Source: a virus
Virus record (IMG/VR): IMGVR_UViG_3300033273_000484
Location: 1 to 28,493 of that record
Direction: 5' to 3' (one strand)
DNA: 28,493 bases
In this document: positions 1,828 through 28,379 of the stretch, one piece after another
Layout of the letters: each line of letters begins with the position of its first letter
Position numbering within the stretch: position 1 is the stretch's first letter
The notes under the pieces: generated by a model
The model's database searches: none
What the model was told of the DNA's origin: nothing
Seen by the model: the letters and a program-made list of their open reading frames with translations, nothing else
Translations under genes and position numbers: made by a program

Positions 1828-2268
1828 ATGGCCTTAGAAATTAGGGACATAGATAATTCTTCATTTAGATACAGGAAGACTTCTCGTAGTTTTAAGGATA
1901 TTAGCCTTACTTTTGCGAAAAATCCTGTCACAAATGATATATTGCCTATTAAAAATGAAGATGCAATCAAGAAGTCGGTGATGAACCTAGTTAAAACTAG
2001 ATTAGGTGAGCGTTTTTTTAACGATTTATTAGGTACTAGACTCGAAGACAGTCTTTTTGAGGTAGGAACTTCGTCACTCATCTACTCTTTGGAGAGTGAA
2101 ATTGCTATTTTATTAGAAAACTTTGAACCAAGGATCAACAATACCAAGGTTTTTGGTGAATATCAAGATGAATCCAACGATTTACTCCTTAGAATAACAT
2201 ATGATATTGTTGGATTACCAATTCCAACCCAAGAAATCGAATTTATCTTAGAACCCACTAGAATCTAA
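1828..2268 (+). CDS. gp25: Baseplate wedge protein gp25
   Basis: This 146-residue protein (T4 gp25 is 132) is the small wedge subunit that binds gp6 and starts sheath assembly at the baseplate; its family has a lysozyme-like fold without the enzyme activity. The N-F-E-P-R-I segment at 98-103 carries the conserved EPR signature of gp25-like proteins, and the region before it, with D-A-I-K-K-S-V-M-N-L-V and E-R-F-F, matches the family's helical part. The stop overlaps the start of gp6 by one base (TAATG), so the two are translationally coupled. No clear ribosome site precedes the ATG; the leader ends in CACTAA. An exact late-promoter octamer is absent upstream, with only TATACATATATT near 1794-1805. 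Confidence 0.92.
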   Translation: MALEIRDIDNSSFRYRKTSRSFKDISLTFAKNPVTNDILPIKNEDAIKKSVMNLVKTRLGERFFNDLLGTRLEDSLFEVGTSSLIYSLESEIAILLENFEPRINNTKVFGEYQDESNDLLLRITYDIVGLPIPTQEIEFILEPTRI

Positions 2269-16100: not shown

Positions 16101-17964
16101 TATTGTTGAGGATAGAGACACTACTGTTGCAATTGCAACTGCTGTTGTTTCTAGCGCTTCGACGGTATCGTCTATTGTTATCTCTGAAGGTGGTGTGGGT
16201 TATGCATATACAAATAACCCAGTAATTACTATTTCCTCTTCATCAATTGAAAGTAAAGATCCCATTAATGACTGGAAAGGAACCGTGGGTATAGGTTCCA
16301 CAACCATAACATTCTTAGATATTGAAAAGGGCAATGTTTCTATTTCCGTAGGTAATAGTTCTAGATATGCATTTAGTGGTGGATCTGAAGTTTGGTTTGA
16401 TGGTAGTATTGGTTATGGTGGAACAATTGTCTTTAATTCTGTCGCAGTTGGAGGAACTAACATTTACTTAACTGTAGGTGAATATGGATATATCAATAGA
16501 ACTATTGGATATGGTCAAACTATTGATACTTCATGGGTTGAGTGTAATCTTCTTGAGGAAAGAATTGAACCTGCTACTGGACAAATTGATATTGAATTTA
16601 GTAATTACGGTCAAGCTGGACAATCATTCAAGGATGCTGTTTATTCATCAACCTTAGACTCTTGGGCCGTTGTTGGAACTGCAGGATCGATTTTCTCTGC
16701 GGTTGGTTTAGGATCCACTTCATTCAGAAGCAGATTCTCTAATACCACCCAAGATATTAATAGCGTAGTTACTTCTAGAGAGGGATTTGTCGCTGTAGGT
16801 AATAATGGAACTATCCTCAAGAGTGTGAATGGTATTATTTGGGAAAGAAAGCAGATCACTACACAAAACTTGAATAAGGTCATATATCATGGATCTACCT
16901 ATGTGATTGTGGGATCAAATGGAACGGTATTGAGAGGTACTTCATATACTAATATTGCAGAAGTTACGAATAATCTGACAACAGAGATTATCTCTATTCA
17001 GTATGATGAATTGTACGTTGCAATTGATATTAATGGTGATATATTCTACTCTTCAGATCTTGAGTTCTGGAACAAGAAAGAAATCAATGTATTTGGATCT
17101 GATGTACCAAAAAATTTATTATTTGTTCCTGAATATGGTAATGATGGAAGATATATTGTAGTTGGTTCAGGTTCTACAATTGTGTTCTCTGATCAAAAGA
17201 TCAATAGAGCAACTGCAGAAACATCTCAGACTAATGGAATTGTAACTTCTATTTTTATCACCAATGGTGGATTTGGTTACTCTCAAGACAATCCACCTTC
17301 CGTATTAATTGAGAGTCCTATTATCAAGAGAGAGAAACTTTCTTCTATTAAGGCAAAAGGTGATTTTGGTACAATTATTGGAATTAATACCTTTAGTTCT
17401 GGAACTACTGGAATTGGTACTACTACACCTAAAATTGATTTTGTTCTTAAATCTGAAAATTATGATAATTCTAATCTTGGAATAGGTTATTCTTCATTAA
17501 ATACTTTTGGTATTTCTGCAAGTCAACTTGAGAAAGGTGATTTCTTTATCATTCATGGTAGTAACGTATCTATCGGTGCCGCACTAACTGGAATTACAAC
17601 ATTTAGTGGACTTAATGGAATGGCCAATTATCCAAATTCTAAAGTTGGCACTGCTACGAGTTTCATCGATGGAGTATACAGAGTTGAAAGTGTAACAACA
17701 GCAAACTCTGGTATCGTAACAGTTACTTGTAATTTTGCACCTAATGATTACAACGTTGCAGGCGCTTCTCTCAAGGTATACAGGAGAGGTGCGGATGTAA
17801 GTGGAGTCAATACTAATCAGTTCTATGGTTATTATTCATGGGGTAAGATTTATGATTTCAGGAATAGAATTTTTGGAAATCCACAAGAGTTTACCGTTGA
17901 ACGTGACAATGGAATCGTTGGAATTGATACGTCAGCGAAGATCTATAGAACTAGGTCAATTTAA
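4141..17964 (+). CDS. gp7: Giant gp7-like baseplate wedge protein, 4607 residues
   Basis: T4 gp7 (about 1030 residues) organises the baseplate wedge and binds gp8 and gp10. Two blocks here match the C-terminal half of T4 gp7. Residues 14-30 and 180-225 contain I-P-D-F-L-L-Q-D-S and F-Y-R-S-K-G..S-Y-K-I-L-F-K-V-L-F. Residues 2380-2430 contain Y-Y-Q-K-F-A-Y-S-I-K-S-N-L-S, then K-W and L-V-H-P-S-G-F. In T4 these blocks are close together; here about 2150 residues separate them and about 2180 follow. Inserted and appended parts, in order: beta modules with G-x-G-Y signatures (715-1157), a YHYH-type region (about 1220-1345), channel-like beta modules, helical repeats (2577-3030), further beta modules (3270-3860) and a propeller-like region (4161-4355). 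The frame is uninterrupted for 13.8 kb with steady AGA-rich codon use, so fusion by error is unlikely. gp7 identity is firm for the core; roles of the rest are inference, probably receptor or surface contact. Confidence 0.88.
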   Translation: MTEKRVSINEIIESQIPDFLLQDSPTFTSFLKQYYKSLDFQGGAADLATNLKQYKNIEKFSINNLIPYTGLTQDINVISETIYVASTLGWPDKNGLIKIDNEIIHYKSKTDNSFEGCSRGFSAIDSIKSASDNEFLSFRVSSADSHTTGTLVHNLSNLFIKEFFTKFKAEFLPGFENRKFTDGVDIQNILTRAKDFYRSKGTDQSYKILFKVLFGQDIELIKPQDYMIVPSDNNYFITKNVLVEKVSGGNPLLIKGGTLFQEVAGIGTVSSSIYNIEYRPIDGKEFYEISLDSADFSNLFQVSGKTRLLEDVPAGSTSILVDSTLGFSQSGNVHIKPKNSNNYINVSYTDKTTNQFLGCSGITKELSFASPIVEDKFAYSYIGFGQTSKVDFLLSNIVDSVDFSETTNLKVGDKISLSGFGKDLKDFSEFNTWIYNVPTNHTLDAVNQVDTNKFRIDIRNLVNLYIGEPVKLYDNDRNVCNGTVVDIIYPSLDEKRKYAKQAVIQVTSQEYNPIDSTTLARVVVRTNHFTNFFQDISDIPAGIQNSYIDFKEEFFYVTSTGSPNYEIFATDTKTEVSVSGVNTSKILESTNHRFYDGENIYFIPTDAQAVGVDTGFYFLSRRNNDSFSLAFSKADSFGNKHIAFTPNGGVVGNIYRSSYENRTIKNQKLFKKFGLKRSKSFFDDKNRRSTENRQVGLLANGVEILSPTLFDENVYHGPITSIEVTNSGKNYDVINPPKLEIVDSQGSGCKGIVNVSGSVEEVKVVKPGIGYATKPDISITGGNGVGCVLESNLVKSRTILKFKPNQPNIDIAADLISFDDDHNLQLGEEVIYNANGNTSIGGLVSDAHYYVATPTSKVVKLHSSPQDAVAGINTVNITAISSGSHAIETLTVKNTISTIYVKEKGSGYSNRTITVPSFSSYGSISGINTYDSYIVARGHGFSEGDIVHYSSTGTPISGMTTTSDYYIHVIDANRFRVSVADTITPNSNYEEDKYIRFTNIGVGTHSFFYPKITIQIKTTSEQGDIEVVEPELEAKILGSITDVFVENGGVSYGCTSQLNYHRRPEVRTTKISSKAIISPIIVDGKIVDVKIINKGHGYRLDSDIIVTGEGAFADLIPVVEEGKITAVNVLNGGVGYGKSNTELSVEPRGRGAKFLANVKNWKVNQVEKLKNSISEEDDGYFIPSRNEDLQLQFVNFFAPKKLRRQLGDNFTENNTESPNTKVHSPIIGFAYDGNPIYGPYGYENITGGGVRKIDPGYEIDLDLTPGIRPPAPEFTAGFFIEDYKFTGSGDLDESNGRFCKTPEYPDGIYAYFTSIVTDSTGRSTPTYPYFIGPYFYGQPFEENFLPSINQDKDLTKYGLTRNVSPYYISSTDSEYPLIDKINDKYKQEFRVSEIRTSGIKDTSIFAAGDNYQVGDTLVIEKRGDTGSGANIAVSKVKGKTIDTFSVNETVVEGVVFDLKKKNTVTARLSDPHNILNGEIINISGISTITSELIEGDRPVFVKQKKTKLTTSMTVSQSGVTTTIYVNDISGFKVDDMIGIGTEECRIIRIDSENSAFDINRIRYPGIHTARVDDVTLLPTVFDFTLTNDEIPSDYVYTNEVTYFDPKVTVGTGTTGGVREVLGVGGTIVQYRTIPSRSIYLPGHKFFTGQKLTYHVGLAGTSLVINNVGSASSIVLQDGQEVYAVNLGKDHIGLSTIGFTSTTGIGTQLSSAEFVNFNDIFPTIGYAHSLRTTYSDITGSVERYSVNVGTTTSHGLTSGDRITLSINNRETESIKILYNPIIRKLTTGPISFASTAVNVDDNTINLPGEDLKSGDKVVYYATTSASGLVNDTCYYVLKEDRDKIKLCQYKTDVEKGISVDIDGTGGAVQNLYKVNPAIRAIKNDTITFDVSDPSVSEMALEFYEDPDFTRRIELIGSEELGFAINRTGTPGTADAKVEIQTTFEDVPRTLFYTLVPKGPIDERKNQISRDESVFGANKLEIYPHSLNTDYIITRSSDTSYIFNLLRRPNQSEKDAYNSSNSTVTYTTTSKTADGPIDKLRINFAGIGYDRIPTISKIKTKKGKNANIKLISDGIGKVEKYERVKDGFDYPTDPTLSPELSTPAVVGIKDIKTIDYIGITTGGRGYNQLPTLIVPQNTSIKLIPHLQGGSVVKVDVAENAIDFSEPLDIVTIHHSQGFDIDFITISGNSITLELSNADILTSGITTVFPFAPGDEIYVEGCRLTNDTDHLANYNSDAYGYKFFKVTGISTTNNTVTYDMTGISTGTFGTYSDDITLGYVVNKKVVPQFEMVLKDDVRYLSNEKVSANTYTARVMEDGWDNDLNQLRLIDSFGNLRVGDKLSGESSKVIGTVEYRSIFTLKSTLGISRDKVGTYDNSVGILNDFQQRISDNFYYQKFAYSIKSNLSYDKWKEPVRSLVHPSGFKEFSDYELITEPTSAEVVAGIAKSENLKPIVADNSSSLLVNIDTVTSVNEEINFNMVYEEDRLPDGSVQKVFMDGGIPLKSYILSKTNKVIKIDDISDQFNGSSKQELRGRYADASDLLDLNRQFIIDEVHAKTLYNYTGLTTDVSYDETEFKSKTGRVLDAVSHDLKYNSNNETVGVAFTYWNAGSFVGVNTVETVYGYNYMRFLGQYVINNQTPPTYYQSGTSQLFNFSVSQDYANDYFVLNHDTRDLIVNNKDEILDKSLASIAIPYPTFIFPGSTNDEEQNRYAIGYKLIKENEDEIVNLAYSQTVATYSGIGTLENHARKQVRHFVDAVATDLFTGGNRYTRRETERYFDGPYPDQTELVGGAAETIFLLDQAKTQMRIAVRNGLGVTYAASLGPSQYGGAGGDIPNTSNNACQDVQNTIITLSAIVTGPVGLATINNLVILNPGTYTAGAQKCYRDLKYIVDGVAQDIAYDTNQHTIRNTKFYFDAQGNQKTDGLVYEEAESIHVFRTAMDYMKKAVRNELYYTNNTLVPLSQSAVGVGSSAYTATIQTDIENLVGILTVAIGNSSLSQIPTVGFGTGDCADVRFALRNYVGIVTNIIGIGTDQAPGITTYPSLTRGGIVVGLSTFKLTSGGTPLFKRVFDSSDTNIIDVISDKFTLNNHNFQTAQELIYDPLGGTRIGIATTSYTTGPKDILMEMNLPKGTAVRNNGLGQPIDPITGVATVMVPAPGTNVTKYYNDVTGTGNTNGVNCVLDVIQVFGSDTNGVAISTVASLVTGGSQFGVGETVTISGDQLDGTSPANDLTFTVTAVGPTRIQGEANNTYSDISGTSTVGTGASFTISRNNTGEILEVVASKGGSGYATTSVITIAGTSLGGSSPNDDITVTPLVLGSNVLPDKVFVYKESESEIKLSGFSTSVFFNLISPGGGNASLTLVDPNPSTSIAIDGIVQNQLRRKNLQLTLGESVGINTTTLQISSGINSVVNGDIINIDDEYILIKSVGVVGDDVIEIEREYLGTTGAAHTIGAGATVLSGDYNIVGDTIFFTTPPYGKQGPVGLETGSTFNGRAFSRRMNPNFPEDKNVVFDDISLSFTGIAATEFTLKVNDETTTTAFNDVNKGTDISNNPFIFINNVFQRPKKDFTIDGSTENKLKFLSGTPNAGRISRVAITTGFGYMVPVGAAGSIQVDANGGISTITVEGSGAGYQFPPAVSIASSLGYGATITANLGAGGTITHFTLTGIGTDYTNNAQVLITSPTGYSNVDLHYAGVSTGVGIDATAKVTIGVGSSIIDFQIDNHGRGYKVGDKLKVPNLIIDPNAGTFEEFQIEVKEVETDKFAGFYPGQFILFDDFSSQFNGFRKKFTLTITENGVTDIRSLRTLDGSDLLIENNLFIYINDILQEPQKSYSFRGSRVIFTEAPKPNSTCSVYFFRGSSADVETVIPPKTIKEGDAVVIKENRQDPIDRDQFERIVKRINASDEFDTFSYASIGIDTNPSKIRPLTWRKQENDRIINGNVISKSRPGLSGRIHPFARIINNVNVGDDHIYVDNAFPIFTEVDTLSEDDRDVFIVEDRDTTVAIATAVVSSASTVSSIVISEGGVGYAYTNNPVITISSSSIESKDPINDWKGTVGIGSTTITFLDIEKGNVSISVGNSSRYAFSGGSEVWFDGSIGYGGTIVFNSVAVGGTNIYLTVGEYGYINRTIGYGQTIDTSWVECNLLEERIEPATGQIDIEFSNYGQAGQSFKDAVYSSTLDSWAVVGTAGSIFSAVGLGSTSFRSRFSNTTQDINSVVTSREGFVAVGNNGTILKSVNGIIWERKQITTQNLNKVIYHGSTYVIVGSNGTVLRGTSYTNIAEVTNNLTTEIISIQYDELYVAIDINGDIFYSSDLEFWNKKEINVFGSDVPKNLLFVPEYGNDGRYIVVGSGSTIVFSDQKINRATAETSQTNGIVTSIFITNGGFGYSQDNPPSVLIESPIIKREKLSSIKAKGDFGTIIGINTFSSGTTGIGTTTPKIDFVLKSENYDNSNLGIGYSSLNTFGISASQLEKGDFFIIHGSNVSIGAALTGITTFSGLNGMANYPNSKVGTATSFIDGVYRVESVTTANSGIVTVTCNFAPNDYNVAGASLKVYRRGADVSGVNTNQFYGYYSWGKIYDFRNRIFGNPQEFTVERDNGIVGIDTSAKIYRTRSI
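6289..7610 (+). repeat. G-x-G-Y beta-repeat array inside gp7 (first cluster)
   Basis: Residues about 717-1157 of gp7 carry at least six copies of a 30-40 residue pattern: I-x-x-[IV]-x-[IV]-x-x-x-G-x-G-Y, a short strand, then G-x-G-x-x-A/K and another strand. Examples end in PGIGY, GSGY, KGHGY and GGVGY. Further copies lie at 10240-10640, 13948-14075, 14893-15345, 16171-16245 and 17239-17320, and in gp8 and the DUF4815-type gene. The repetition is at protein level; the DNA has diverged. Confidence 0.75.
7800..8175 (+). other. YHYH-type domain embedded in gp7
   Basis: Residues about 1220-1345 contain I-I-G-F-A-Y-D-G-N-P-I-Y-G-P-Y-G-Y, later L-D-E-S-N-G-R-F and P-D-G-I-Y-A-Y-F, and finally Y-P-Y-F-I-G. 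This order matches the YHYH domain family as I know it, found in secreted and surface proteins, whose biochemical role is not settled. It lies between beta modules in the large insertion, well away from both gp7 core blocks. Confidence 0.65.
11266..11430 (+). other. Second half of the gp7 core
   Basis: Residues about 2376-2430 match the T4 gp7 segment that reads S-Y-Y-V-M-K-I-K-S-N-L-P..W-K..V-R-F-V-H-P-V-G-F. Here the equivalent is Y-Y-Q-K-F-A-Y-S-I-K-S-N-L-S..K-W-K..V-R-S-L-V-H-P-S-G-F. The recall of T4 gp7 is from memory, but the shared order of residues is strong. It marks where the wedge-core fold resumes after the insertion. Confidence 0.75.
11869..13060 (+). repeat. Helical VDAVAxD repeats inside gp7
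   Basis: Two clear units (12370-12570, residues 2744-2810; 12772-12987, residues 2878-2949) share R-x-[FY]-[IV]-V-D-[AG]-V-A-x-D-[IL], an N-x-x-T-R turn, Y-F-D, an acidic A-E-[ST]-I segment and a closing helix with M..A-V-R-N. Weaker units lie at about 11869-11970 (V-L-D-A-V-S-H-D-L) and from 13156 (C-A-D-V-R). They are predicted helical, in contrast with the beta modules on both sides. Confidence 0.65.
14665..15705 (+). repeat. Two F-S-x-Q-F-N-G beta modules inside gp7
   Basis: Residues about 3508-3582 and 3770-3855 share D-D-[IF]-S, a QFNG or SFTG turn, F-x-L-x-[IV], a loop, then I-F-I-N-N-V or I-Y-I-N-D-I followed by [LF]-Q-x-P, a D/S-[FY] pair and a closing strand with F..A-P or S-G-T-P. 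The same pattern occurs in the 225-residue protein encoded at 27702-28379 (residues 37-110). Confidence 0.65.
16621..17205 (+). other. Propeller-like (BNR/Ycf48-like) region of gp7
   Basis: Residues about 4161-4355 contain roughly five short units of the form [FY]-V-A-V-G-x-x-G-T-I-x-x-S-x-D/N-G-x-x-W: V-A-V-G-N-N-G-T-I-L-K-S-V-N-G-I-I-W, then V-I-V-G-S-N-G-T-V-L, an I-F-Y-S-S-D..F-W unit and V-V-G-S-G-S-T-I-V-F-S. These resemble the blades and Asp-box turns of sialidase-like or Ycf48-like propellers. Five recognisable blades suggest a partial or degenerate propeller. Confidence 0.6.
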
Positions 17965-18005: not shown

Positions 18006-19601
18006 ATGCCTGCAATTATATCGGATCAATTCAGAATTCTCAACGCCGAGAACTTCGTAAAGAACATTACCGGCGTTGCGAATACTACTGATAAGTATTA
18101 TACGTTCATTGGTATGCCTAATGCCTTAGAACCGACGGCAGGGGGTGCTGCAGATTGGACTACCAACACTCCCTCTCCCTTGGATGGGTTTAAGGAAGAA
18201 AGTGAAATAAAACAATCTATCATTGCGATGAAACAAATTACGTCTCAAGACGTAAGAAGATTGGTTAGAAAGGTAGAATGGGTTTCTGGTACTACCTACG
18301 AAATGTATAGACATGATTATACAGTTTATAATCGAACACCAGTAAACCAATCAACTTCTTTATATCAGTCAAATTATTATGTTATAAATGATGATCTAAG
18401 AGTTTATATTTGTTTACAAAATGGAACAGATCCAGAAAACCCTTCTGGAAAACCATCGTTTGACCAACCAGACTTTATTGACTTGGAACCAAGGGCTGCA
18501 GGAACCTCTGGTGATGGTTATGTTTGGAAATATCTTTATACTATTAAACCTTCTGAGATTGTAAAATTCGATTCTATTGAATATATTCCAGTACCAGAAA
18601 ATTGGGGAACTTCTGGAGAAAGTATTTCTACTAAAAGTAATGCTATTGCAGGAAAAGTAGAAACTATTCTTATTGAAGATAGGGGATCTAACTATCAACC
18701 AATTTCAACATCATTCTCGAATGTTCCTATTTTAGGTGATGGTAGTGGAGGTAAAGCAACTATTACTATCGATTCTTTTGGTAAGGTATCAGAAGTATTC
18801 GTAACTGATGGAGGTAAAGATTACACTTACGGAACTATTCAGTTTTATCCAGGTGCTCCAGAAACAGATAGTGGGGAGGCTCTGAGTAATTTAGCAAATA
18901 CAGGAATTGGAACAACTTCATTTGCATCATTTAATGTTATTATACCACCCAAAGGTGGTCATGGTTTTGATATTTACAGAGAATTGGGTGCATACAGAGT
19001 TCTTTTATTCTCAAGATTTGAAACTATTGAAACAAATCCAGATATTATTTTAGGTAATGATTTTGCAAGAGTTGGTATTTTGAAAAATCCAACTATATTC
19101 GGAAGTAATAGTGAAATATTAAGTCAGAATATGGTAAGTGGATTGGGAGCTCTCAAATTGTCTGGGGTAACTACTGCAACAACATATGCAGTTGACTCTG
19201 TAATCAAACAAACTGTTGGTTTAGGATCCACTGCAATTGGATATGTTGCATCTTGGGATAAAACTACAGGAGTATTAAAATACTATCAACCAACTGGACT
19301 TGCTTCTAGTGAATCTGGATTTAAGATTATCCCATTCACCGCTTCACCTGACACTGGATATGGAGTTACTATCAATTGTTCATCAATTGTTGGACCAGCA
19401 TTATCCATTGACACCGCATTTCAAGGTGTAACTACATCAATAAATAATAAGATATATCAATTAGGTCTAGACTTTGTAGCTGGTATTGGATCTGAGGAAT
19501 TTAATAGAAAGTCTGGTGAACTAATCTACATAGATAATAGGGCCCCGATCCCTAGATCCGCTAGCCAAAAAGAAGATATCAAAGTTGTACTGGAGTTCTA
19601 A
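18006..19601 (+). CDS. gp8: Baseplate wedge protein gp8, enlarged
   Basis: The 531-residue protein (T4 gp8 is 334) is the wedge subunit that dimerises and binds gp7 and gp10. The segment G-D-G-Y-V-W-K-Y-L-Y near residue 169 matches G-D-G-Y-V-W-E-Y-L-F of T4 gp8, and the C-terminus (503-531), with S-G-E-L-I-Y-I-D-N-R-A-P-I, matches S-G-E-M-I-Y-M-E-N-R-P-P-I. Between these, about residues 215-290 hold two of the G-x-G-Y-type beta modules seen in gp7 (ending DRGSNY and DGGKDY), which helps explain the extra length. An AAGAAGGA tract lies 20 or more bases before the ATG, too far to be an ordinary ribosome site; TGTTCTAAA directly precedes the start. The next gene starts six bases after the stop. 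Confidence 0.92.
   Translation: MPAIISDQFRILNAENFVKNITGVANTTDKYYTFIGMPNALEPTAGGAADWTTNTPSPLDGFKEESEIKQSIIAMKQITSQDVRRLVRKVEWVSGTTYEMYRHDYTVYNRTPVNQSTSLYQSNYYVINDDLRVYICLQNGTDPENPSGKPSFDQPDFIDLEPRAAGTSGDGYVWKYLYTIKPSEIVKFDSIEYIPVPENWGTSGESISTKSNAIAGKVETILIEDRGSNYQPISTSFSNVPILGDGSGGKATITIDSFGKVSEVFVTDGGKDYTYGTIQFYPGAPETDSGEALSNLANTGIGTTSFASFNVIIPPKGGHGFDIYRELGAYRVLLFSRFETIETNPDIILGNDFARVGILKNPTIFGSNSEILSQNMVSGLGALKLSGVTTATTYAVDSVIKQTVGLGSTAIGYVASWDKTTGVLKYYQPTGLASSESGFKIIPFTASPDTGYGVTINCSSIVGPALSIDTAFQGVTTSINNKIYQLGLDFVAGIGSEEFNRKSGELIYIDNRAPIPRSASQKEDIKVVLEF
19439..19446 (+). promoter_or_regulatory. Possible internal late promoter AATAAATA in gp8
   Basis: The same octamer and leading C as at 17967-17975 occur inside the gp8 coding region, 161 bases before the DUF4815-type gene. 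It falls on ordinary Asn and Lys codons in AT-rich DNA, so chance is a real alternative. Confidence 0.25.
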
Positions 19602-19607
19602 ATCAAC

Positions 19608-22600
19608 ATGGCACAGAATATCAATTTAAACGCTTCTCCATACTTCGACGATTTTGATTCGTCAAGTAATTATCAGAGGGTTTTATTCAAGCCAGGAACT
19701 CCTATTCAGGCAAGAGAACTTACTACCCTACAGTCAATTCTACAAAATCAAGTAGAACAGTTCGGTAAACACTTTTTTAAAGAAGGATCCGTCGTAATTC
19801 CTGGTCAAATTGCATATGATCCCGACTATTTCTACGTTCAGATTGATGCTAATCACTTGGGAGTTCCAGTAGAAATTTACTTAGAATCTTTGATTGGTCA
19901 AACAATTAGGGGACAAGTTAGTGGCGTCAAGGCGAAAGTTGTAGATTATATCACATCTTCTACTTCCGAAAGAGGAAATCCTACTCTCTATGTGAAATAT
20001 CAAAGTGGTAGTGAAAATGATGAAGGTGCTAATGGAAATCAAAAAACCATATTTGATGGTGGCGAAAACCTCGTTGTCACTAAAGATGTAAAATATTCAT
20101 TATCTACAATTAAATCCGAGTCTACTTTTGCTACTACTCTCCTTACAGATGCAGTTGGCGAAGGTTCGGTTGCAAAAATTGCAGATGGCGTCTATTTCAT
20201 TAGAGGATTTTTTGTAAATGTTCCTGCTCAGAAAGTAATTCTTGATCAGTATAGTGATACTCCATCATATAGAGTTGGACTCTTTATCAATGAAAATATT
20301 ACTGTTGCTTCAAATGAAAATCCAGATTTATTTGATAATGCAAGAGGATTTTCAAACTTTGCAGCACCAGGTGCAGATAGACTAAAAATAACTACAACTT
20401 TAATTAAAAAAAGTTTAGATGATCTTAATGATGAAGATTTTATCGAATTACTCAGGATTGAAAATGGAATAGTTCAAAAATTTGTAAAAGATAGTGCTTA
20501 TAATATCATCAATGATGAACTTGCAAGAAGAACATATGATGAGTCTGGTCATTACTATGTAACTCCCTTTAAAATAGAAGTAAAAGAGTCTTTGAATGAC
20601 CAGGTTGGTAATGATGGTGTCTATTTACCATTCCAACAAACTCAATCTGGAATTGTACCTTCTGACGATTTTCTTTCCTTACAGATTTCTCCAGGAAAAG
20701 CATATGTTAGAGGATATGAAATTGAAACTATTAGTACAACATCTGTAGATGTCCCTAAAGCAAGAACTACTGAATTAAAAGAAAATTCAAGTGTTCCATT
20801 TACTTTGGGTAGACAATTTGAACTCAATAACCTCCATGGTTCACTTCCAGTAGGATTTTCGACAGCAACTGTTAAATTACATGCAGATAGAACTGTAACT
20901 GGTGGTTCTGCGTCTGGTCTCGAAATAGGTGTTGCAAGAGTTTATGATTTAAAACTGAAAAATGCAGAATATCAAGATAATTCTACGACATTTGTAACTC
21001 ATTTGTATGATGTTCAGACATACAATTACATAAATTTAAATTCTAGTATTAGTTTAAGTTTACCAGCATACATTGAGGGTAAAAATAGTAGTGCTCACGG
21101 ATACCTAGTAAATGCTGTAGATAATAGTAACCAAATCATACTATATCAAGTTTCTGGAACTTTTATCAAAAACGAACAAATTAAGATCAATGGTGTAGAT
21201 AACTCTAGAACTATTGAAGATGTTCGCGATTATAGTATGAATGACGTGAAACAATTATATTCCAGTTCCGCATCATTTACAGCAGATCTTAAACTCGATA
21301 GAAGTATTTCTTTAGCAGCTCAAGGAGATGAATTTAGTATTACTTCTGATGGTGTAGTCAAGTCTCCAAATCAAACATTTTTTGTAGGTATTCAAACTGG
21401 AGATGTTATTGCATATGCGAAAGAAGGCGATACATTACCTACTTTCAATAGAGTAGTTAACGTTAATCCAACTGCAAAAACTATCACGGTAGAAGATACT
21501 ACATCAATTACCGATGTTTCTGTGGGAACTTTGCCTGCCTCTACTATTAGTGTAAGTAATGTTCTGAAATTGACTCCTCAAGAGTTTGGACTAAACGAAG
21601 CATTTCTCTATGCACCTCTTGAAGAAACAAATGTATCTGATACTGATATTTCAGAATCTAATATTGTTGTGAGAAAGGCATATGATGTTACTATTGCATC
21701 TGGTGGTTTGAATCAAACTTTGGAAACAGATGTTTCCCTAACTCTAGAACCATTTGATGAGGAAGATTATAACCTTACATTTACTGGAAATGGTAATGTT
21801 GAAACATTAAACAATAGAAAATTAACAGTAAGTGGTAGAACAATTACACTTCAAGATATTAGTGAAAACGGTTCAGCGAGACTTACTGTAACATTTAAGA
21901 AAAAAGATCTTACAACAAAGAGTAAAGTTTACAATAGAAATGCTTCTCTTATTGTTAATCTTTCTTCTCAGACTGCTTCTGGTACTGCATCTACTTCGAT
22001 TCAAGATGGATTGACATATGGTCCAATTTATGGAACAAGAGTTCAAGATAAACAAATTTGTTTAAATGTTCCTGATGTTCAAGAAGTTCTTGCCATATTT
22101 GAGTCAAATGACACCAATGATCCAGAACTTCCTAAATTAACTCTAACAAACTTTAATGCAAATGTACTTAACAGCATTAAAGGAGAATATATTAAGGGTG
22201 AGACTAGTGGAGCCGTTGGATCTTTAGTATCAAGTAATTCTACAAATGAAGTTGAGTTTGTATACTTAAACGAACAAACCTTCCAAACTGATGAAAAAGT
22301 AACATTTGCAGAATCACAAATTACTGCAAATATTTTCTCTATTTCAGTTGGTGATAGAGATATTGTGGCCAACTTTGAGTTGGACCCGAATCAAAAACCA
22401 GAATTTGCAGATTATTCTTATCTACTAAGAAGAAGTGATACAAATGCACCTACGAGAAAGATTAGAGTAATCTTCAATCACTACGTTTTAAACGCTGATG
22501 ACCCAGGTGATTTTGTAACTGTAGACTCATATGAGAAACAAAGATACAAGTCAGATATTCCTTTAATTGAAGGTATTGGGTGTAGTGATATTATTGATGT

Positions 22601-25600
22601 AAGACCAAGAGTAGTGCCCTTTGATGTATCCAGTGCGACTAGATCTCCATTTGAATATAACGCAAGAACATTTGACAAAGCTACCAACTCTTCTCCTTTC
22701 AATTTAGTAAGTGATAAAGCAATCAATTTAGATTATAACTTCTATGTCGGTAGAATTGACAGACTTTATTTAAATAAAGATGGTGAATTTTTCCTCGCAG
22801 AGGGTGTTGCTTCTAAGACACCAAAAGAACCACAGGTAGTGGACACATCTTTGGATGTTGGTACTATTGATATTCCACCATATACATACAAAGTTGATGA
22901 TGTTGAAGTCGTTCTAACTCCTCATAAGAGATATAGAATGGTTGATATTGCTCAACTAGAAGATAGATTGACAAGTGTAGAAAATTACACTGCATTATCT
23001 TTGCTTGAAACTGAGACTAAAAACCTTACTATTAGGGACTCTCAGACAGGTCTGGATAGATTTAAGTCTGGTTTCTTTGTTGATAATTTTAGATCTGTAT
23101 TTGGTGGAGGAATAGGAGATCAATCTTACAAGTGTGCAGTTGATACTGAAAATGGTCATCTAAGACCAACTCACTACACTACTGCATTTGATTTACTTCT
23201 TGGTTCTGAAGCAGTTATTGGTGCTTCTAATGTTGCAGATCCTTCAGCGGATCTTAGATTTGTGAAAGATCTCGGAACTCCAAATACTATCAAAAAAGGT
23301 GATGTAATTTGTTTGAATTTTGAAGACACTGTATATTTCTCTAACAAATTTGCAACCAGATCGGAAAATGTAAATCCATTCCACGTTGTAAACTGGATTG
23401 GTGCTATTGAATTGAATCCTGGAACTGATACATGGATTGAAACTAGGAAAACTAGTAGAACTGCCGATATTGAAGGTAGTTATTCGGCAGCTCTAGGAAT
23501 TACTGGCGCTGATAGTAATACTGGAATTTCTCCTGTAGAGTGGGGTTCTTGGGAAACTACTTGGAGAGGAACTCAAGTTACTGGTAGAAGTACAAGAGTT
23601 AGAAGAGGTAGAGTAAGAGTAAGAAGAACTGTCCGAACTGGACCAAGAAGACGTAGAGGAAGACTAAGGACTACCACTACCACTAGAACGAGAAGAATAG
23701 TAAGAACAACAAGTACAACTACTCTAACCACAACAAGACAACAGAGATCTGGAACTCAGTTCCGTGTTAGAGAGAGATTTGATACTACAAATCTGGGAGA
23801 TAGAGTAGTTTCTACCGAAGTTGTTCATACAATGAGAAGTAGAAATATTGAATTTATTGCTAGAAGAATGAAACCCAATGGTAGAGTTTATCCCTTCTTC
23901 GATAATGTTGATATGTCGAAGTATATTATTCCTAAACTCGTGGAAATCGAGATGGTTAATGGAACTTTCCAAGTTGGTGAAACTATTATTGGAAATAGAG
24001 GTGCAGCCTCTATTAGAGTGAGGGCTGCAAAAGCAGACCATAAGTACGGTCCTTATAATAGTCCATCTCAAACCTATAAACAAAATCCATATAAATCTGG
24101 AGAGGTTTTACCACAGGCATACTCTACAACATCAACTATCCTTAATATTGATACAGCTGGATTAGAACTTCAGTCTGCATCTGGATATTTTGGATATATT
24201 GTTGAAGGAATGCAATTGGTTGGACAATCTAGTGGTGCTGTTGCAACAGTAAAGACTATTAGATTGAAAGCAGATAATTCTGGTACTATTATTGGTTCTT
24301 TATATCTACCAGACCCAACATTACCATCAACACCTTCATTCAATACTGGAACGAAAACTTTTGCACTTACTTCCAGTAAAACTAAGTCAACCATTGTTGG
24401 CACTAAAGATAGTGAAGCTGAAACAACTTACACTGCAACTGGAACTCTACAAAATGTAGAGAACCTTACTCTTAGAATGAGAAATGCAGATGTTGAAAGA
24501 AATACTGTTTCTGGATCCAGAACACTAACCAGTTCACGAACCAGAACCAGATCTAGAACAAGTTTCAGAAGTAGAACAACTAGACAGAGGAGGTGGGTTG
24601 ATCCACTTGCACAATCTTTTGAAGTTCCAGATGAAAATGGAATCTTTATTTCTAAGGTAGATTTCTTCTTTAGAACAATTGATTCGACTGGACTACCAGT
24701 TACATGTCAAATTAGAACAATGCAAACTGGTTTACCAACTCAAACAATTGTTCCATTTGGTGAAATTGTTCTAACACCAGATCAGGTTAGTGTTTCCGAT
24801 GATGCGACTGTACCAACTACCTTTGAATTCCCATCACCAGTATATCTTGCACCTAATCAGGCATATTGTTTCGTTCTCCTTTCTGCTTCAAACGAATACA
24901 ATGTTTGGATTTCTAGAATGGGTGAAAGAGATGTTTCTACTTTAGATAAAGCAGAATCTGAACAAATTATTGTTTCGCAACAACCATTACTTGGTTCATT
25001 GTTCAAATCTCAGAATGGCGCAACATGGGATCCTGCACAATATGAAGATCTCAAATTGACTGCATACAGAGCAGAATTTTTTGATGGTTCTTCAACCGCT
25101 AGGTTCTATAATCCAGATTTGGATATTGGTAATAATCAAATTGCAACCCTAGATGTTAACCCTCTAGAAACAACTTCTAAATCCATAGTAGTTGGTATTG
25201 CTAAGAGTCTGTCTACAACAGAAATAGGTAATTTAACACCAGGTGTGAAAATTTTACAACAATCGAACAATGGATTCTCTGGAAATTTGAGAAGTTTAGT
25301 AGGTGCTATAGGTATTGGTAGTGATCTTGTAATTACTAATGCGGGAACAGCATTCACTTCAAATTCTACAACATATAGTAATGTAGATCTAATTTCTTTG
25401 ACTGGAAGAGGAAAGGGCGGAAAAGCAACAGTAACTGTTAGTGGTGGTGTTGCAGTTGCCGCAACAGTTTCTGTGGGTGGTACTGGTTATGCATATGGAG
25501 ATTCTTTAACTGTAGATTATGCAGATACTGACAACTTTGGTAATAACTTAATCCTTTCTATTCCAAATACTGTTGGTGTTATTTCCGCATTCAATTCTTT

Positions 25601-27113
25601 AATTATTGATAGAGTTCAGGGTGATATTGCAGTTGATGGATCCTCAACCCTTTTCTATGTTGGTTCTAGTGGAACTGCAAATATCGCAGGTGCATCCAAT
25701 GTTAAATTTGCAGAAACCCTGAGTGATGGATTGCATCTTAAGGTTAGACATCAAAATCATGGCATGTATGCTGTCAATAATCTAGTTAAATTAACTGGAA
25801 TTCAACCAGATCAAAAACCACAAAAGATCAGTGCAAAGTATGAATCATCTTCTACAGATAATCTAACTGTAACAAGTGTTGGAATCTTTACCAGTTTTGA
25901 AAATGTGCCGGTTTCTACTGTAAATCCAGGTTATATTATTATCGACGATGAAATCATTAAGTATACGGGCGTAAACACTGCAGCAAGTTCTCTTACTGGA
26001 ATTAGTAGAGCTCAAGATAATACAATTGCGGAACGTCATAAGATAAATGAACCAGTATTCAAATATGAAATGAATGGTGTTTCATTGAGAAGAATTAATA
26101 GAACTCATGACTTCTCAGACGTTAATCACTCACTATATCCAATCGATACTGATTCATACCACATCAAGATTGATGCCGCGGATATAAATTATGGAACAGA
26201 CAGAACTACTGGAAATGCCAACTCTTTCCCAGTGTTGCACTTCAATGAGGACAAAAAGTGTGGATCTTATGATCAACTAACACTTAAAAACTCTACAAGG
26301 ACTGCACATGCTACCCAAAATATAACATATAGTGCATTAACACCAAATCTACAAACTGCAATTCCAGAGGGAACAAGCATATCCGCAAAAGTCAGAAGTT
26401 TCTCAGGAAGTTCTCCTGGAAATCTCGCACAAATTTCTTTCCAAGATCAAGGATTTGAAGATATTAGTCTTGAGAGTACTAATTTCTTTGAAACTCCGAG
26501 AATCGTATGTTCTAAAGTTAATGAAGATGAATTCCTACAGGATTTCCCTGGAAGAAAGTCTTTCACTATTGAAGTAACTTTATCAACTAGCGATACTAAG
26601 GTATCACCAATGATTGACCTTGATAGAACCAATGCAATCTTTACTGGAAATAGAATTAACTCTAATATTACTGATTTTGCTACTGATGGTAGGGTGAATT
26701 CTGTTGACGAAGATCCTTCAGTTGCAACATATGTTACAAAAATCATCAAACTCGAAAGAGGTGCAGATAATTTAAGAGTATTCTTTGACGCATACAGACA
26801 TTCTAGTAATGATATTAGAGTGTTGTATAGACTATTCAGAACTGATACTGATGAATCTAACCAGTCATATGAACTATTCCCTGGATATAAGAATCTAAAT
26901 GCTAGTGGTGATGTTGTTGATCCTGCTAAGAATGATGGTTTGCCTGATAAAGTAGTTGATTTTTCAAATACCGATGATGATTTCAGAAGTTATGAGTACA
27001 CAGCTAAGAATTTGGCACTATTCAATGGATTCCAGGTTAAAATTATTATGACTGGAACAAATATTGCGAAAGTGCCTCTGATTAGAGATCTGAGAGTTAT
27101 TGCGACTGCTTGA
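19608..27113 (+). CDS. Giant DUF4815-type virion structural protein, 2501 residues
   Basis: The N-terminus (residues 1-65: P-Y-F-D-D-F, V-L-F-K-P-G, I-Q-A-R-E-L, L-Q-S-I-L, Q-F-G-K-H-F-F-K-E-G-S) matches DUF4815, found in tail or baseplate structural proteins of marine T4-like phages. About residues 1319-1392 and 1638-1663 are Arg/Thr-rich. D-P-L-A-Q-S-F at 1665-1671 opens a jelly-roll-like stretch to about 1830, with typical strands K-V-D-F-F-F and C-Q-I-R. A G-x-G-Y beta module lies near 25318-25515 and an I-D-D-E-I-I-K-Y module near 25921-26000. The C-terminus (F-N-G-F-Q-V-K-I-I-M-T-G-T-N..L-R-V-I-A) is like that of cyanophage homologues I remember. Its place after gp8 corresponds to T4 gp9/gp10, so a role at the baseplate rim or in fibre attachment is plausible. 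TGGAG lies 13 bases before the ATG, and the start is probably coupled to gp8. Confidence 0.82.
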   Translation: MAQNINLNASPYFDDFDSSSNYQRVLFKPGTPIQARELTTLQSILQNQVEQFGKHFFKEGSVVIPGQIAYDPDYFYVQIDANHLGVPVEIYLESLIGQTIRGQVSGVKAKVVDYITSSTSERGNPTLYVKYQSGSENDEGANGNQKTIFDGGENLVVTKDVKYSLSTIKSESTFATTLLTDAVGEGSVAKIADGVYFIRGFFVNVPAQKVILDQYSDTPSYRVGLFINENITVASNENPDLFDNARGFSNFAAPGADRLKITTTLIKKSLDDLNDEDFIELLRIENGIVQKFVKDSAYNIINDELARRTYDESGHYYVTPFKIEVKESLNDQVGNDGVYLPFQQTQSGIVPSDDFLSLQISPGKAYVRGYEIETISTTSVDVPKARTTELKENSSVPFTLGRQFELNNLHGSLPVGFSTATVKLHADRTVTGGSASGLEIGVARVYDLKLKNAEYQDNSTTFVTHLYDVQTYNYINLNSSISLSLPAYIEGKNSSAHGYLVNAVDNSNQIILYQVSGTFIKNEQIKINGVDNSRTIEDVRDYSMNDVKQLYSSSASFTADLKLDRSISLAAQGDEFSITSDGVVKSPNQTFFVGIQTGDVIAYAKEGDTLPTFNRVVNVNPTAKTITVEDTTSITDVSVGTLPASTISVSNVLKLTPQEFGLNEAFLYAPLEETNVSDTDISESNIVVRKAYDVTIASGGLNQTLETDVSLTLEPFDEEDYNLTFTGNGNVETLNNRKLTVSGRTITLQDISENGSARLTVTFKKKDLTTKSKVYNRNASLIVNLSSQTASGTASTSIQDGLTYGPIYGTRVQDKQICLNVPDVQEVLAIFESNDTNDPELPKLTLTNFNANVLNSIKGEYIKGETSGAVGSLVSSNSTNEVEFVYLNEQTFQTDEKVTFAESQITANIFSISVGDRDIVANFELDPNQKPEFADYSYLLRRSDTNAPTRKIRVIFNHYVLNADDPGDFVTVDSYEKQRYKSDIPLIEGIGCSDIIDVRPRVVPFDVSSATRSPFEYNARTFDKATNSSPFNLVSDKAINLDYNFYVGRIDRLYLNKDGEFFLAEGVASKTPKEPQVVDTSLDVGTIDIPPYTYKVDDVEVVLTPHKRYRMVDIAQLEDRLTSVENYTALSLLETETKNLTIRDSQTGLDRFKSGFFVDNFRSVFGGGIGDQSYKCAVDTENGHLRPTHYTTAFDLLLGSEAVIGASNVADPSADLRFVKDLGTPNTIKKGDVICLNFEDTVYFSNKFATRSENVNPFHVVNWIGAIELNPGTDTWIETRKTSRTADIEGSYSAALGITGADSNTGISPVEWGSWETTWRGTQVTGRSTRVRRGRVRVRRTVRTGPRRRRGRLRTTTTTRTRRIVRTTSTTTLTTTRQQRSGTQFRVRERFDTTNLGDRVVSTEVVHTMRSRNIEFIARRMKPNGRVYPFFDNVDMSKYIIPKLVEIEMVNGTFQVGETIIGNRGAASIRVRAAKADHKYGPYNSPSQTYKQNPYKSGEVLPQAYSTTSTILNIDTAGLELQSASGYFGYIVEGMQLVGQSSGAVATVKTIRLKADNSGTIIGSLYLPDPTLPSTPSFNTGTKTFALTSSKTKSTIVGTKDSEAETTYTATGTLQNVENLTLRMRNADVERNTVSGSRTLTSSRTRTRSRTSFRSRTTRQRRWVDPLAQSFEVPDENGIFISKVDFFFRTIDSTGLPVTCQIRTMQTGLPTQTIVPFGEIVLTPDQVSVSDDATVPTTFEFPSPVYLAPNQAYCFVLLSASNEYNVWISRMGERDVSTLDKAESEQIIVSQQPLLGSLFKSQNGATWDPAQYEDLKLTAYRAEFFDGSSTARFYNPDLDIGNNQIATLDVNPLETTSKSIVVGIAKSLSTTEIGNLTPGVKILQQSNNGFSGNLRSLVGAIGIGSDLVITNAGTAFTSNSTTYSNVDLISLTGRGKGGKATVTVSGGVAVAATVSVGGTGYAYGDSLTVDYADTDNFGNNLILSIPNTVGVISAFNSLIIDRVQGDIAVDGSSTLFYVGSSGTANIAGASNVKFAETLSDGLHLKVRHQNHGMYAVNNLVKLTGIQPDQKPQKISAKYESSSTDNLTVTSVGIFTSFENVPVSTVNPGYIIIDDEIIKYTGVNTAASSLTGISRAQDNTIAERHKINEPVFKYEMNGVSLRRINRTHDFSDVNHSLYPIDTDSYHIKIDAADINYGTDRTTGNANSFPVLHFNEDKKCGSYDQLTLKNSTRTAHATQNITYSALTPNLQTAIPEGTSISAKVRSFSGSSPGNLAQISFQDQGFEDISLESTNFFETPRIVCSKVNEDEFLQDFPGRKSFTIEVTLSTSDTKVSPMIDLDRTNAIFTGNRINSNITDFATDGRVNSVDEDPSVATYVTKIIKLERGADNLRVFFDAYRHSSNDIRVLYRLFRTDTDESNQSYELFPGYKNLNASGDVVDPAKNDGLPDKVVDFSNTDDDFRSYEYTAKNLALFNGFQVKIIMTGTNIAKVPLIRDLRVIATA
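23562..23783 (+). other. Arg/Thr-rich segment 1 of the DUF4815-type protein
   Basis: Residues 1319-1392 contain 25 Arg in 74 residues, with runs such as G-P-R-R-R-R-G-R and alternating R-V-R, broken by Thr-rich stretches. Acidic residues are almost absent. The DNA is correspondingly purine-rich, mainly AGA codons. It lies between folded-looking parts, so a surface-exposed basic linker is likely. Confidence 0.8.
24519..24593 (+). other. Arg/Ser/Thr-rich segment 2 of the DUF4815-type protein
   Basis: Residues 1638-1662 contain 10 Arg in 25 residues, in an alternating R-T-R-T-R-S-R pattern directly before the W-V-D-P-L-A-Q-S-F motif. It is the second basic patch and sits at the edge of the jelly-roll-like region. 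Confidence 0.75.
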
Positions 27114-27114
27114 T

Positions 27115-27345
27115 ATGAAAAAAATTCCAGTAAAGGATCAACCAGGTTTATACCGTGATGAAAAAAGCGGAGCAATATTAAATTGCTCCGATATTGAATA
27201 TAATAATTACATGGAAGCGAAAAGATTTAAGTTGAGGGAACTTGAAGAAAAAGAAAATGAAAAAGAAGAAATCCGACAATTAAAGTCGGATGTAGAAGAT
27301 TTGAAGGACATGTTAAAACTGGTCTTAAATAAAATGGATAAATAG
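27115..27345 (+). CDS. Small coiled-coil protein, likely virion-associated
   Basis: The 76-residue protein has an N-terminal segment K-K-I-P-V-K-D-Q-P-G-L-Y-R-D with G-A-I-L-N-C, then a highly charged helix (about residues 35-76) with heptad-like Leu/Val/Met spacing, ideal for a coiled coil. I chose the ATG at 27115, one base after the preceding stop (TGATATG); an upstream TTG at 27100 would overlap the giant gene and adds only five residues. I recall similar short proteins after the DUF4815 gene in cyanophages; their function is unknown to me. A hairpin lies inside the gene, and its stop overlaps a late-promoter-like octamer. Confidence 0.75.
   Translation: MKKIPVKDQPGLYRDEKSGAILNCSDIEYNNYMEAKRFKLRELEEKENEKEEIRQLKSDVEDLKDMLKLVLNKMDK
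27161..27190 (-). terminator. Perfect 9-bp hairpin with A6 on its 5' side; minus-strand terminator form
   Basis: CGGAGCAAT (27168-27176) and ATTGCTCCG (27182-27190) pair perfectly around a five-base loop. Six A (27161-27166) and one G precede it, so on the minus strand the stem is followed by C and six T, a standard intrinsic-terminator layout. No T tract follows on the plus strand. It lies inside the coding region of the coiled-coil gene, so codon choice there may have been shaped by the structure. Confidence 0.5.
27337..27344 (+). promoter_or_regulatory. Late-promoter-like octamer GATAAATA over a stop codon
   Basis: GATAAATA encodes the final Asp-Lys of the coiled-coil gene and overlaps its TAG stop (27343-27345). 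It ends 22 bases before the next ATG. Confidence 0.55.
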
Positions 27346-27366: not shown

Positions 27367-27702
27367 ATGGCGGCAAGGAATGTAAATCTAGTTCTTGAGC
27401 AGGGTGTTGATTTTCAAGCCACTTTTACCATTAACAATGCATTTAACAATGCACCTTTGAATCTTACTGGTTATACTGGAATCTCTTCCATAAGAAAACA
27501 CCCATCCTCAACGACTGCATATCCACTGACAGTATCTTTTCCAGATCGTTTGAAGGGAAAAGTAAAAGTTTCTATGGGATACACTGCCTCAAGTGAAATT
27601 GAAGGTGGTCGTTATGTTTATGATTTAATTTTGGTGTCCACGAACGATTACAGAACAAGAGCTGTTCAAGGTAATGTTCTAGTAACCCCAGGTGTTGTCT
27701 GA
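27367..27702 (+). CDS. Probable virion accessory protein with a single beta-sandwich
   Basis: The 111-residue protein starts R-N-V-N-L-V-L-E-Q-G-V-D-F, continues with L-N-L-T-G-Y-T and K-V-K-V-S-M, and closes with G-G-R-Y-V-Y-D-L and a final V-L-V-T-P-G-V-V. This order (QG-D-F-x-x-x-F, LTGY, G-R-Y-V-Y-D) is shared by short phage beta-sandwich proteins, including the N-terminal type of baseplate upper proteins such as BppU. There is no signal peptide. The ATG has no clear ribosome site; GTTCTAAT precedes it. Its stop overlaps the next start (TGATG). A structural role, for instance decorating the baseplate or fibres, is inference. Confidence 0.72.
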   Translation: MAARNVNLVLEQGVDFQATFTINNAFNNAPLNLTGYTGISSIRKHPSSTTAYPLTVSFPDRLKGKVKVSMGYTASSEIEGGRYVYDLILVSTNDYRTRAVQGNVLVTPGVV

Positions 27703-28379
27703 TGGCAGAATACGTAGTATCAGTAGACCAAAGTCCAGAATATGACGTTGGTGTCAATTATGAGATACCATCAAAATCTCTTCAGAATTCCAATCTGATT
27801 CTGGATCATCTGAACTCTCAGTTCAATGGATCTAAAACTATATTTAATTTAACTCACCAAAATAATGTTTATACACCAATAAACGATCAACAAATATTGG
27901 TAGTTAAAAATAATCTAGTCCTAGAACCAGTTGAGGACTATAATGTTTCTGAAAGTAATATACAGTTTACAGTAGCGCCATTATCTACTGACGATATATT
28001 CATTGTAGCACTACAATATACTGCTGATCTAACCAGAACTGTCAATTTTATTGTTGATTCTGGTTCCGCAGATATGAATATTGGAGTCAAGGGATCACTA
28101 GCTTTGGATGTTACTGGTAGTATTGAACATGTTCAAATAATGGCAGATCATCCTGGAAGTGTTTCTGTAGAGATAAAAAAAGCATCTTACAGTTCTTTTC
28201 CAACTTTTCAGACTATAACTAATGGTCAATACGTAAGTCTAAGTAATGGCCAAATTGTCAGAGATGATACCCTAAATAATTGGGATAAAATAATTACATC
28301 GGGTGACATTCTGCAATTTGAAGTCATTTCGGTCAATAACATTAGGAGATTCCTAATCTCTTTGAAATTAAATTTATAA
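27702..28379 (+). CDS. Probable virion structural protein with a Q-F-N-G module
   Basis: This 225-residue protein is beta-rich throughout. Residues 37-110 hold L-N-S-Q-F-N-G, F-N-L-T, a loop, L-V-V-K-N-N-L-V-L-E-P..D-Y and I-Q-F-T-V-A-P, the same module that occurs twice in the giant gp7. The second half (about 120-225) has alternating polar and hydrophobic strands and ends in a short basic-hydrophobic segment, R-R-F-L-I-S-L-K-L-N-L. An AGGTG lies eight bases before the ATG and the start overlaps the previous stop by one base, so it is coupled to the 111-residue gene. Function is unknown; sharing a module with gp7 suggests it is part of the particle. Confidence 0.75.
   Translation: MAEYVVSVDQSPEYDVGVNYEIPSKSLQNSNLILDHLNSQFNGSKTIFNLTHQNNVYTPINDQQILVVKNNLVLEPVEDYNVSESNIQFTVAPLSTDDIFIVALQYTADLTRTVNFIVDSGSADMNIGVKGSLALDVTGSIEHVQIMADHPGSVSVEIKKASYSSFPTFQTITNGQYVSLSNGQIVRDDTLNNWDKIITSGDILQFEVISVNNIRRFLISLKLNL
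28341..28357 (+). other. Perfect 7-bp hairpin near a gene end
   Basis: ATTAGGA and TCCTAAT pair around a GAT loop, 19 bases before the stop of the 225-residue gene. The following bases are CTCTTTG, not a clear T tract, so a terminator is not well supported. Confidence 0.3.

Follow-up and report, generated by a model that had tools for sequence, protein, structure and literature searches.

The window analysed here is the whole of IMG/VR virus record IMGVR_UViG_3300033273_000484 (28.5 kb; positions 1 to 28,493), from a marine cyanobacterial virus, and carries a T4-like cyanophage baseplate cluster. Two genes for baseplate wedge subunits (1828-2268 and 2268-4139), whose products we take to be gp25- and gp6-like, are followed on the plus strand by a giant gene (4141-17964) for a gp7-like baseplate wedge protein of 4607 aa, identified by its match to PHROG 2885 (baseplate wedge subunit) and by its position, the gene at the corresponding place in S-SSM7 being annotated as gp7 baseplate wedge initiator. 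The 4607-aa protein contains a YHYH domain (PF14240, E 1.7e-22, residues 1218-1314, approximately 7792-8082) and a basic stretch at aa 640-689 (6058-6207; net +10 in 50 residues). A homologue of the baseplate wedge protein gp8 (18006-19601, plus strand; PF09215, E 1.3e-12; PHROG 438), used below as the control neighbour in charge tests, precedes the DUF4815 gene, the end of which is overlapped by a small ORF (27100-27345); a small gene also lies directly 3' of the DUF4815-type gene in S-SSM7, S-CAM9 and S-SM2. The last protein (225 aa; 27702-28379) matches PHROG 701 and PHROG 19630, and both are also matched by the 4607-aa protein, which suggests that the two proteins have structural domains in common.

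The gene at 19608-27113 (plus strand) encodes a giant baseplate protein of the DUF4815/VrlC type, 2501 aa in length. Its product passes the curated Pfam threshold for PF16075 (DUF4815; E 1.2e-53, 182.7 bits against a cut-off of 30), is spanned by PHROG 358 over residues 1-2501 and is matched by phmmer to phi812 ORF65 in the PDB (E 3.2e-37); no NCBIfam family was found for it. It shares with VrlC-type proteins both full-length homology and a gene place directly after gp8, an order also present in S-SSM7, S-CAM9, S-SM2, P-SSM7, S-SM1 and P-TIM40. By homology to phi812, the protein is probably a virion baseplate component. A tblastn search with aa 1251-1699 gave 406 phage records, and 392 of these have Synechococcus, Prochlorococcus or Cyanophage in their names; aa 1601-1860 as query matched 1526 phage records. 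Two contigs from other metagenomes (L002 and L004) are 100% identical to the window in their best tblastn segment, so a nearly identical virus recurs.

A sequence-only reading had noted two strongly basic Arg/Thr patches within 23562-24593 (aa 1319-1662), unusual in a virion protein that looked neutral or acidic otherwise. Both patches are real. Patch 1 (aa 1320-1393, loop 1 below; 23565-23786, plus strand) is rich in Arg and Thr and has 25 Arg among 74 residues, alongside 2 acidic ones and not a single Lys; patch 2 (aa 1638-1662, loop 2; 24519-24593, plus strand) has 10 Arg among 25, with neither acidic residues nor Lys. The maxima in 5000 whole-protein shuffles were 17 Arg in 74 residues and 9 in 25, so that patch 1 lies far above the shuffle maximum and patch 2 above it by one. 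When patch 1 was removed first, none of 5000 shuffles reached 10 Arg in 25 (maximum 8). The Arg:Lys ratio was 30:0 in the loop cores (aa 1321-1376 and 1629-1664) against 99:112 elsewhere in the protein (Fisher p 1.7e-9). The surroundings are acidic as described: the whole chain has a net charge of -53, and aa 1320-1369, at +20, give the highest 50-residue value across the ten window ORFs scanned. The region as a whole is not basic, however, as aa ~1413-1610 between the patches are of ordinary composition and form a conserved domain. Patch 1 also contains weak short repeats (scores 30-34), and L002 differs from the window there by one residue (Thr to Arg).

In alignments of 98 and then 178 loci, the patches fell in poorly conserved columns (1630-1649 for patch 2) of two distinct loops, both hypervariable and rich in Ser and Thr; the flanks and the intervening sequence are better conserved. 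Loop 1 comes after a W-x5-W motif and ahead of the conserved middle domain (aa 1413-1610; 23844-24437, plus strand), and loop 2 leads from the middle domain back to a domain with the motif VDPLAQSF (aa 1664-1825; 24597-25082, plus strand) that phmmer matches to phi812 ORF65 748-964. An AlphaFold model of aa 1225-1860 as a monomer, built from 101 sequences, was of fair quality (mean pLDDT 77, pTM 0.60) and largely confident in the middle domain. Its only long interior stretches with pLDDT below 50 were aa 1319-1377 and 1639-1665 (model residues 95-153 and 415-441), which are the two patches. An earlier model, based on 40 more closely related sequences, had long strands running through both patches; these were dropped, as that model had a mean pLDDT of 48 and the better one places the patches below 50. 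Hypervariability and low model confidence together suggest that the loops may be exposed.

The region around the patches has the phi812 DUF4815 baseplate fold. Foldseek matched the model to 9euf_0 (E 7.1e-14, query TM 0.41, rmsd 10.7 A over 607 columns), and VIA-align superposed it on the phi812 pre-contraction chain with Z 21.8 (3.6 A over 331 residues) and on the post-contraction chain with Z 23.3 (1.8 A over 175 residues, where the VDPLAQSF domain aligns). The next structural row had only Z 12.6; it and those below were set aside as common beta-sandwich folds. Judging from the aligned lengths, the sandwich is probably discontinuous, with N-terminal strands at aa 1231-1290 (23298-23477, plus strand), near which the aligned spans with phi812 and other folds begin, its remainder in the VDPLAQSF domain, and a second, Ig-like domain inserted between them. 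Loop 2 would then be the return crossing.

The charge of the loops is not conserved across homologues: summed over both loops it ranges from net negative to +33, so strong basicity is no general requirement of the DUF4815/VrlC family. S-SSM7 is one natural relative with weak charge. The family at large thus goes part of the way towards what the sequence-only reading had named as counting against its interpretation, homologues with neutral residues throughout the region and no change in host range or assembly. Within the window's clade (80-100% identical) the charge is kept: in each of its 17 loci the best 74 residues contain 17-26 Arg. The remaining 81 of 98 loci have 7-17, sometimes away from the loops. 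In six within-clade pairs, the Arg present in one sequence only numbered 8/8, 10/6, 12/6, 10/8, 5/7 and 3/2, so the Arg total is better kept than the Arg positions. Across 11 pairs, dN in the loops was approximately 2 to 7 times that in the flanks, and dN/dS was 0.13-0.44 in the loops against 0.06-0.12 in the flanks, with some synonymous distances near saturation. The loops evolve fast yet under constraint. In ACG-2014f and S-CAM7 (L089 and L094) loop 1 is nearly absent, reduced to a few residues, and loop 2 has a poly-proline run.

Strong basicity recurs in separate lineages, through Arg in the window's clade and through Lys, or Lys and Arg, elsewhere. L096/L108 and L072 are strongly basic, and the sequences closest to them, by tree or table, carry far less charge. 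Loop charges are +22/+11 in Sf-FS3 (L096), from 18 Arg and 19 Lys, and +10/+3 in S-8S55, from 2 Arg and 18 Lys. S-SCSM2R, which was not part of a tree, is strongly basic too (+14/+8, from 6 Arg and 21 Lys); like Syn30, S-SSM2, S-BM1 and S-H9-2, of which the last is least certain, it was added to the loop-charge table by fixed columns, with insertions lost. The basic loops are a lineage variant within a protein of known kind.

We compared loop charges in two protein sets, in exploratory tests for which many windows and blocks were tried once the patches were known. The full-length set comprised 52 of 80 full-length proteins (of 99) at 95% identity and gave 51 phylogenetic contrasts; the larger set retained 113 of 179 proteins after 90% identity and length filters, 111 of which entered tests with 110 contrasts covering aa 990-1860 only. 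Contrast values for loop-loop, offset, block, column and slope tests are through-origin, and some contrast p-values (the 36-aa window scan, loop lengths and random controls) derive partly from Spearman tests on contrasts of arbitrary sign. The net charges of loops 1 and 2 rise and fall together, with rho 0.60 across the 113 dereplicated homologues (uncorrected) and, on contrasts, r 0.74 in the full-length set and r 0.58 in the larger one. The best 36-aa window tested against loop 1 charge was loop 2 itself. Covariation of loop length, as expected if the loops were paired as strands, was absent (contrasts rho 0.05), and an alternating arrangement, with Arg in every other position, gave p 0.34, 0.03 and 0.01 over three stretches, too weak for use.

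The net charge of the remaining chain also fell as summed loop charge rose (r -0.60, p 2.2e-6, 51 contrasts). On contrasts summed loop charge correlated with the remaining Asp/Glu (r +0.57) and not with the remaining Arg/Lys (r -0.02), so the offset arises through Asp/Glu. Among 36 close relatives (2459-2512 aa) the offset had a raw rho of -0.88 and a contrast r of -0.70, whereas across all 52 proteins it was weak when uncorrected (rho -0.27, p 0.055) and not significant once the seven most basic were left out (-0.14). Regression of the rest of the chain on the loops gave contrast slopes of -1.05 (close group) and -1.00 (all 52) against uncorrected slopes of -1.50 and -0.43, so the slope is near -1 on contrasts only. 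Random two-window controls (n=376) had a mean rho of +0.12 (sd 0.14) and a minimum of -0.31, compared with -0.64 for the loops. When six sequence sets, including each strongly basic clade, were dropped in turn, the loop-loop correlation stayed between 0.50 and 0.84 and the offset between -0.55 and -0.67.

Contrast correlations for gp8 and two small neighbours were -0.14, +0.02 and +0.09, none of them significant. gp8 was readable in 45 of the 52 loci of the full set and in 28 of the 36 of the close group; in the close group its uncorrected rho was -0.53 (p 0.003) and its contrast value -0.19, not significant. The uncorrected value leaves some room for an acidic trend that reaches past the DUF4815 protein. 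Within the protein, the offset is spread over blocks 301-400, 1001-1200, 2168-2267 and 2368-2467, and is not found in blocks 1201-1300 and 1413-1612. The block with net charge most clearly opposite to the loops is aa 1035-1130 (22710-22997, plus strand; r -0.52, p 5.6e-9, 110 contrasts), as located with 12-aa windows and dropped-clade checks. Against all flanks jointly, the offset across the 111 proteins of the larger set (aa 990-1860) was small (r -0.25, p 0.0075). A search of 484 columns for single-column partners returned one that clearly passed, 1063 (q 0.0014), which changes in the wrong direction, and a borderline one, 1695 (q 0.05).

Residues 1112 and 1122 (22941-22943 and 22971-22973) sit in a motif with the consensus MKDI..IEDRLKNVE. 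By eye, its second Lys is Thr in the shown members of the window's clade except L003 (Ala) and separately Thr in L096 and L108, and its first Lys is replaced by Val or Ile in the clade, by Gln in L096 and by Arg in L108; the column test gave no support for single residues.

Because the two loops covary, the offset lies in the same chain, gp8 has no tree-corrected offset and loop charge differs among phages isolated on one strain (see below), we prefer to see in the loops a structural, electrostatic function within the baseplate rather than a binding site for lipopolysaccharide. The patches would be two rapidly evolving loops, probably exposed, that belong to a single beta-rich module and are set in a common electrostatic environment that would make their charges rise and fall together. 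In the window's lineage the loops are strongly basic through Arg, balanced by Asp/Glu elsewhere in the chain, most clearly around aa 1035-1130. Given that balance within the chain, the loops would most likely lie packed against, or close to, acidic surfaces, be these on their own oligomer or on adjacent subunits of the baseplate, and this packing may help to set stability or domain mobility. We put forward packing against acidic surfaces, with the charge balanced inside the same protein, as quite plausible while a little short of probable. The Asp/Glu offset lends indirect support to the earlier suggestion that acidic neighbours in the baseplate are what the patches touch; the contact, like the closeness of the loops, the oligomer and any part in baseplate rearrangement, is what we infer.

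An improbable extension of this reading is that the paired basic loops act as an electrostatic latch, holding the DUF4815 domains against acidic parts of their own oligomer before contraction and releasing them on baseplate rearrangement, with a strength tuned in each lineage by matched changes in loop and body charge. The model could be superposed on a longer part of the pre-contraction chain than of the post-contraction one, these being deposited with different modelled lengths (1082 and 908), which may offer a faint hint of such a latch.

A somewhat unlikely alternative is net-charge buffering, in which the loops change for local reasons and acidic gains elsewhere, with no contact involved, keep a giant protein in solution and away from nucleic acid. 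A slope near -1 is also compatible with this alternative, as are the spread of the offset over many blocks and its origin in Asp/Glu rather than in loss of Arg/Lys. However, no such offset appears for random segments of the protein or for blocks 1201-1300 and 1413-1612, while aa 1035-1130 stand out. Relaxed drift of low-complexity sequence, in which Thr/Ser-rich loops move through AGA and ACA codons and acquire charge without function, is about as improbable as the latch. It would account for the raised dN of the loops, for the weak repeats in patch 1 and for the near loss of loop 1 in ACG-2014f and S-CAM7. But Lys, one transition from AGA, is absent from the window's loops; dN/dS never rises above 0.44, some synonymous distances being near saturation; and the charges of the two loops covary.

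We likewise consider it improbable that an anionic receptor, be it lipopolysaccharide or some other glycan of the host surface, is the target of the basic loops. Receptor-contacting loops are often hypervariable, and these loops are hypervariable and may be exposed. Receptor binding by itself predicts no acidic offset in the same chain, however, and loop charge differs widely among phages isolated on one Synechococcus strain: in eight hand-picked phages, summed loop charges were +33, +13, +6 and -5 for those isolated on WH8102 and +22, +16, +11 and +4 for those isolated on WH7803, an isolation strain not being the same as a host range. The proposal of a lipopolysaccharide-binding surface has thus gained no support. 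Tandem-repeat expansion was rejected as the repeats are weak and short, and so was a hidden or overlapping gene behind the Arg bias: the antisense ORF at 23724-24083 overlaps patch 1 at its end alone, a stop interrupts that frame in 18 of 22 sequences (the window, L002, L007 and L017 being the open ones), and none of the five other frames of the window is free of stops across loop 1.

Returning to packing of the loops against acidic surfaces, the coupling between loop charge and the rest of the chain offers a concrete, checkable hypothesis about which parts touch in a widespread baseplate family, and the case illustrates how extreme a local charge a very large virion protein can carry. The DUF4815/VrlC family and its place in the baseplate were already known from PMC7029224 and from the PDB phi812 entries. 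The literature searched, which leaves out most subscription papers, contained little on DUF4815/VrlC function and no description of these loops or of their charge coupling.

Among known systems, ORF65 of the Staphylococcus phage phi812 (DUF4815; PDB 9euf before and 9eui after contraction, and 9euj) is a baseplate subunit, three stretches of which each match the window protein significantly, although it has 1152 aa compared with 2501. In TmpG, its counterpart in Kayvirus 676Z, both loop places can be aligned to the window protein; what corresponds to loop 1 there is not rich in Arg and Thr, and the counterpart of loop 2 is short and contains some Arg, Lys and Thr. The VrlC proteins of T4-like cyanophages and pelagimyophages are like the window protein in full-length similarity and in gene place after gp8, and differ in that those outside the window's clade have 7-17 Arg in their best 74 residues against 17-26 within it. 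According to PMC7029224, VrlC appears to replace T4 gp7; unlike this, the S-SSM7 record has a separate gp7 annotated upstream of its VrlC-type gene. Sf-FS3, S-SCSM2R and S-8S55 resemble the window in that both loops are net positive, but their charge comes with much Lys.
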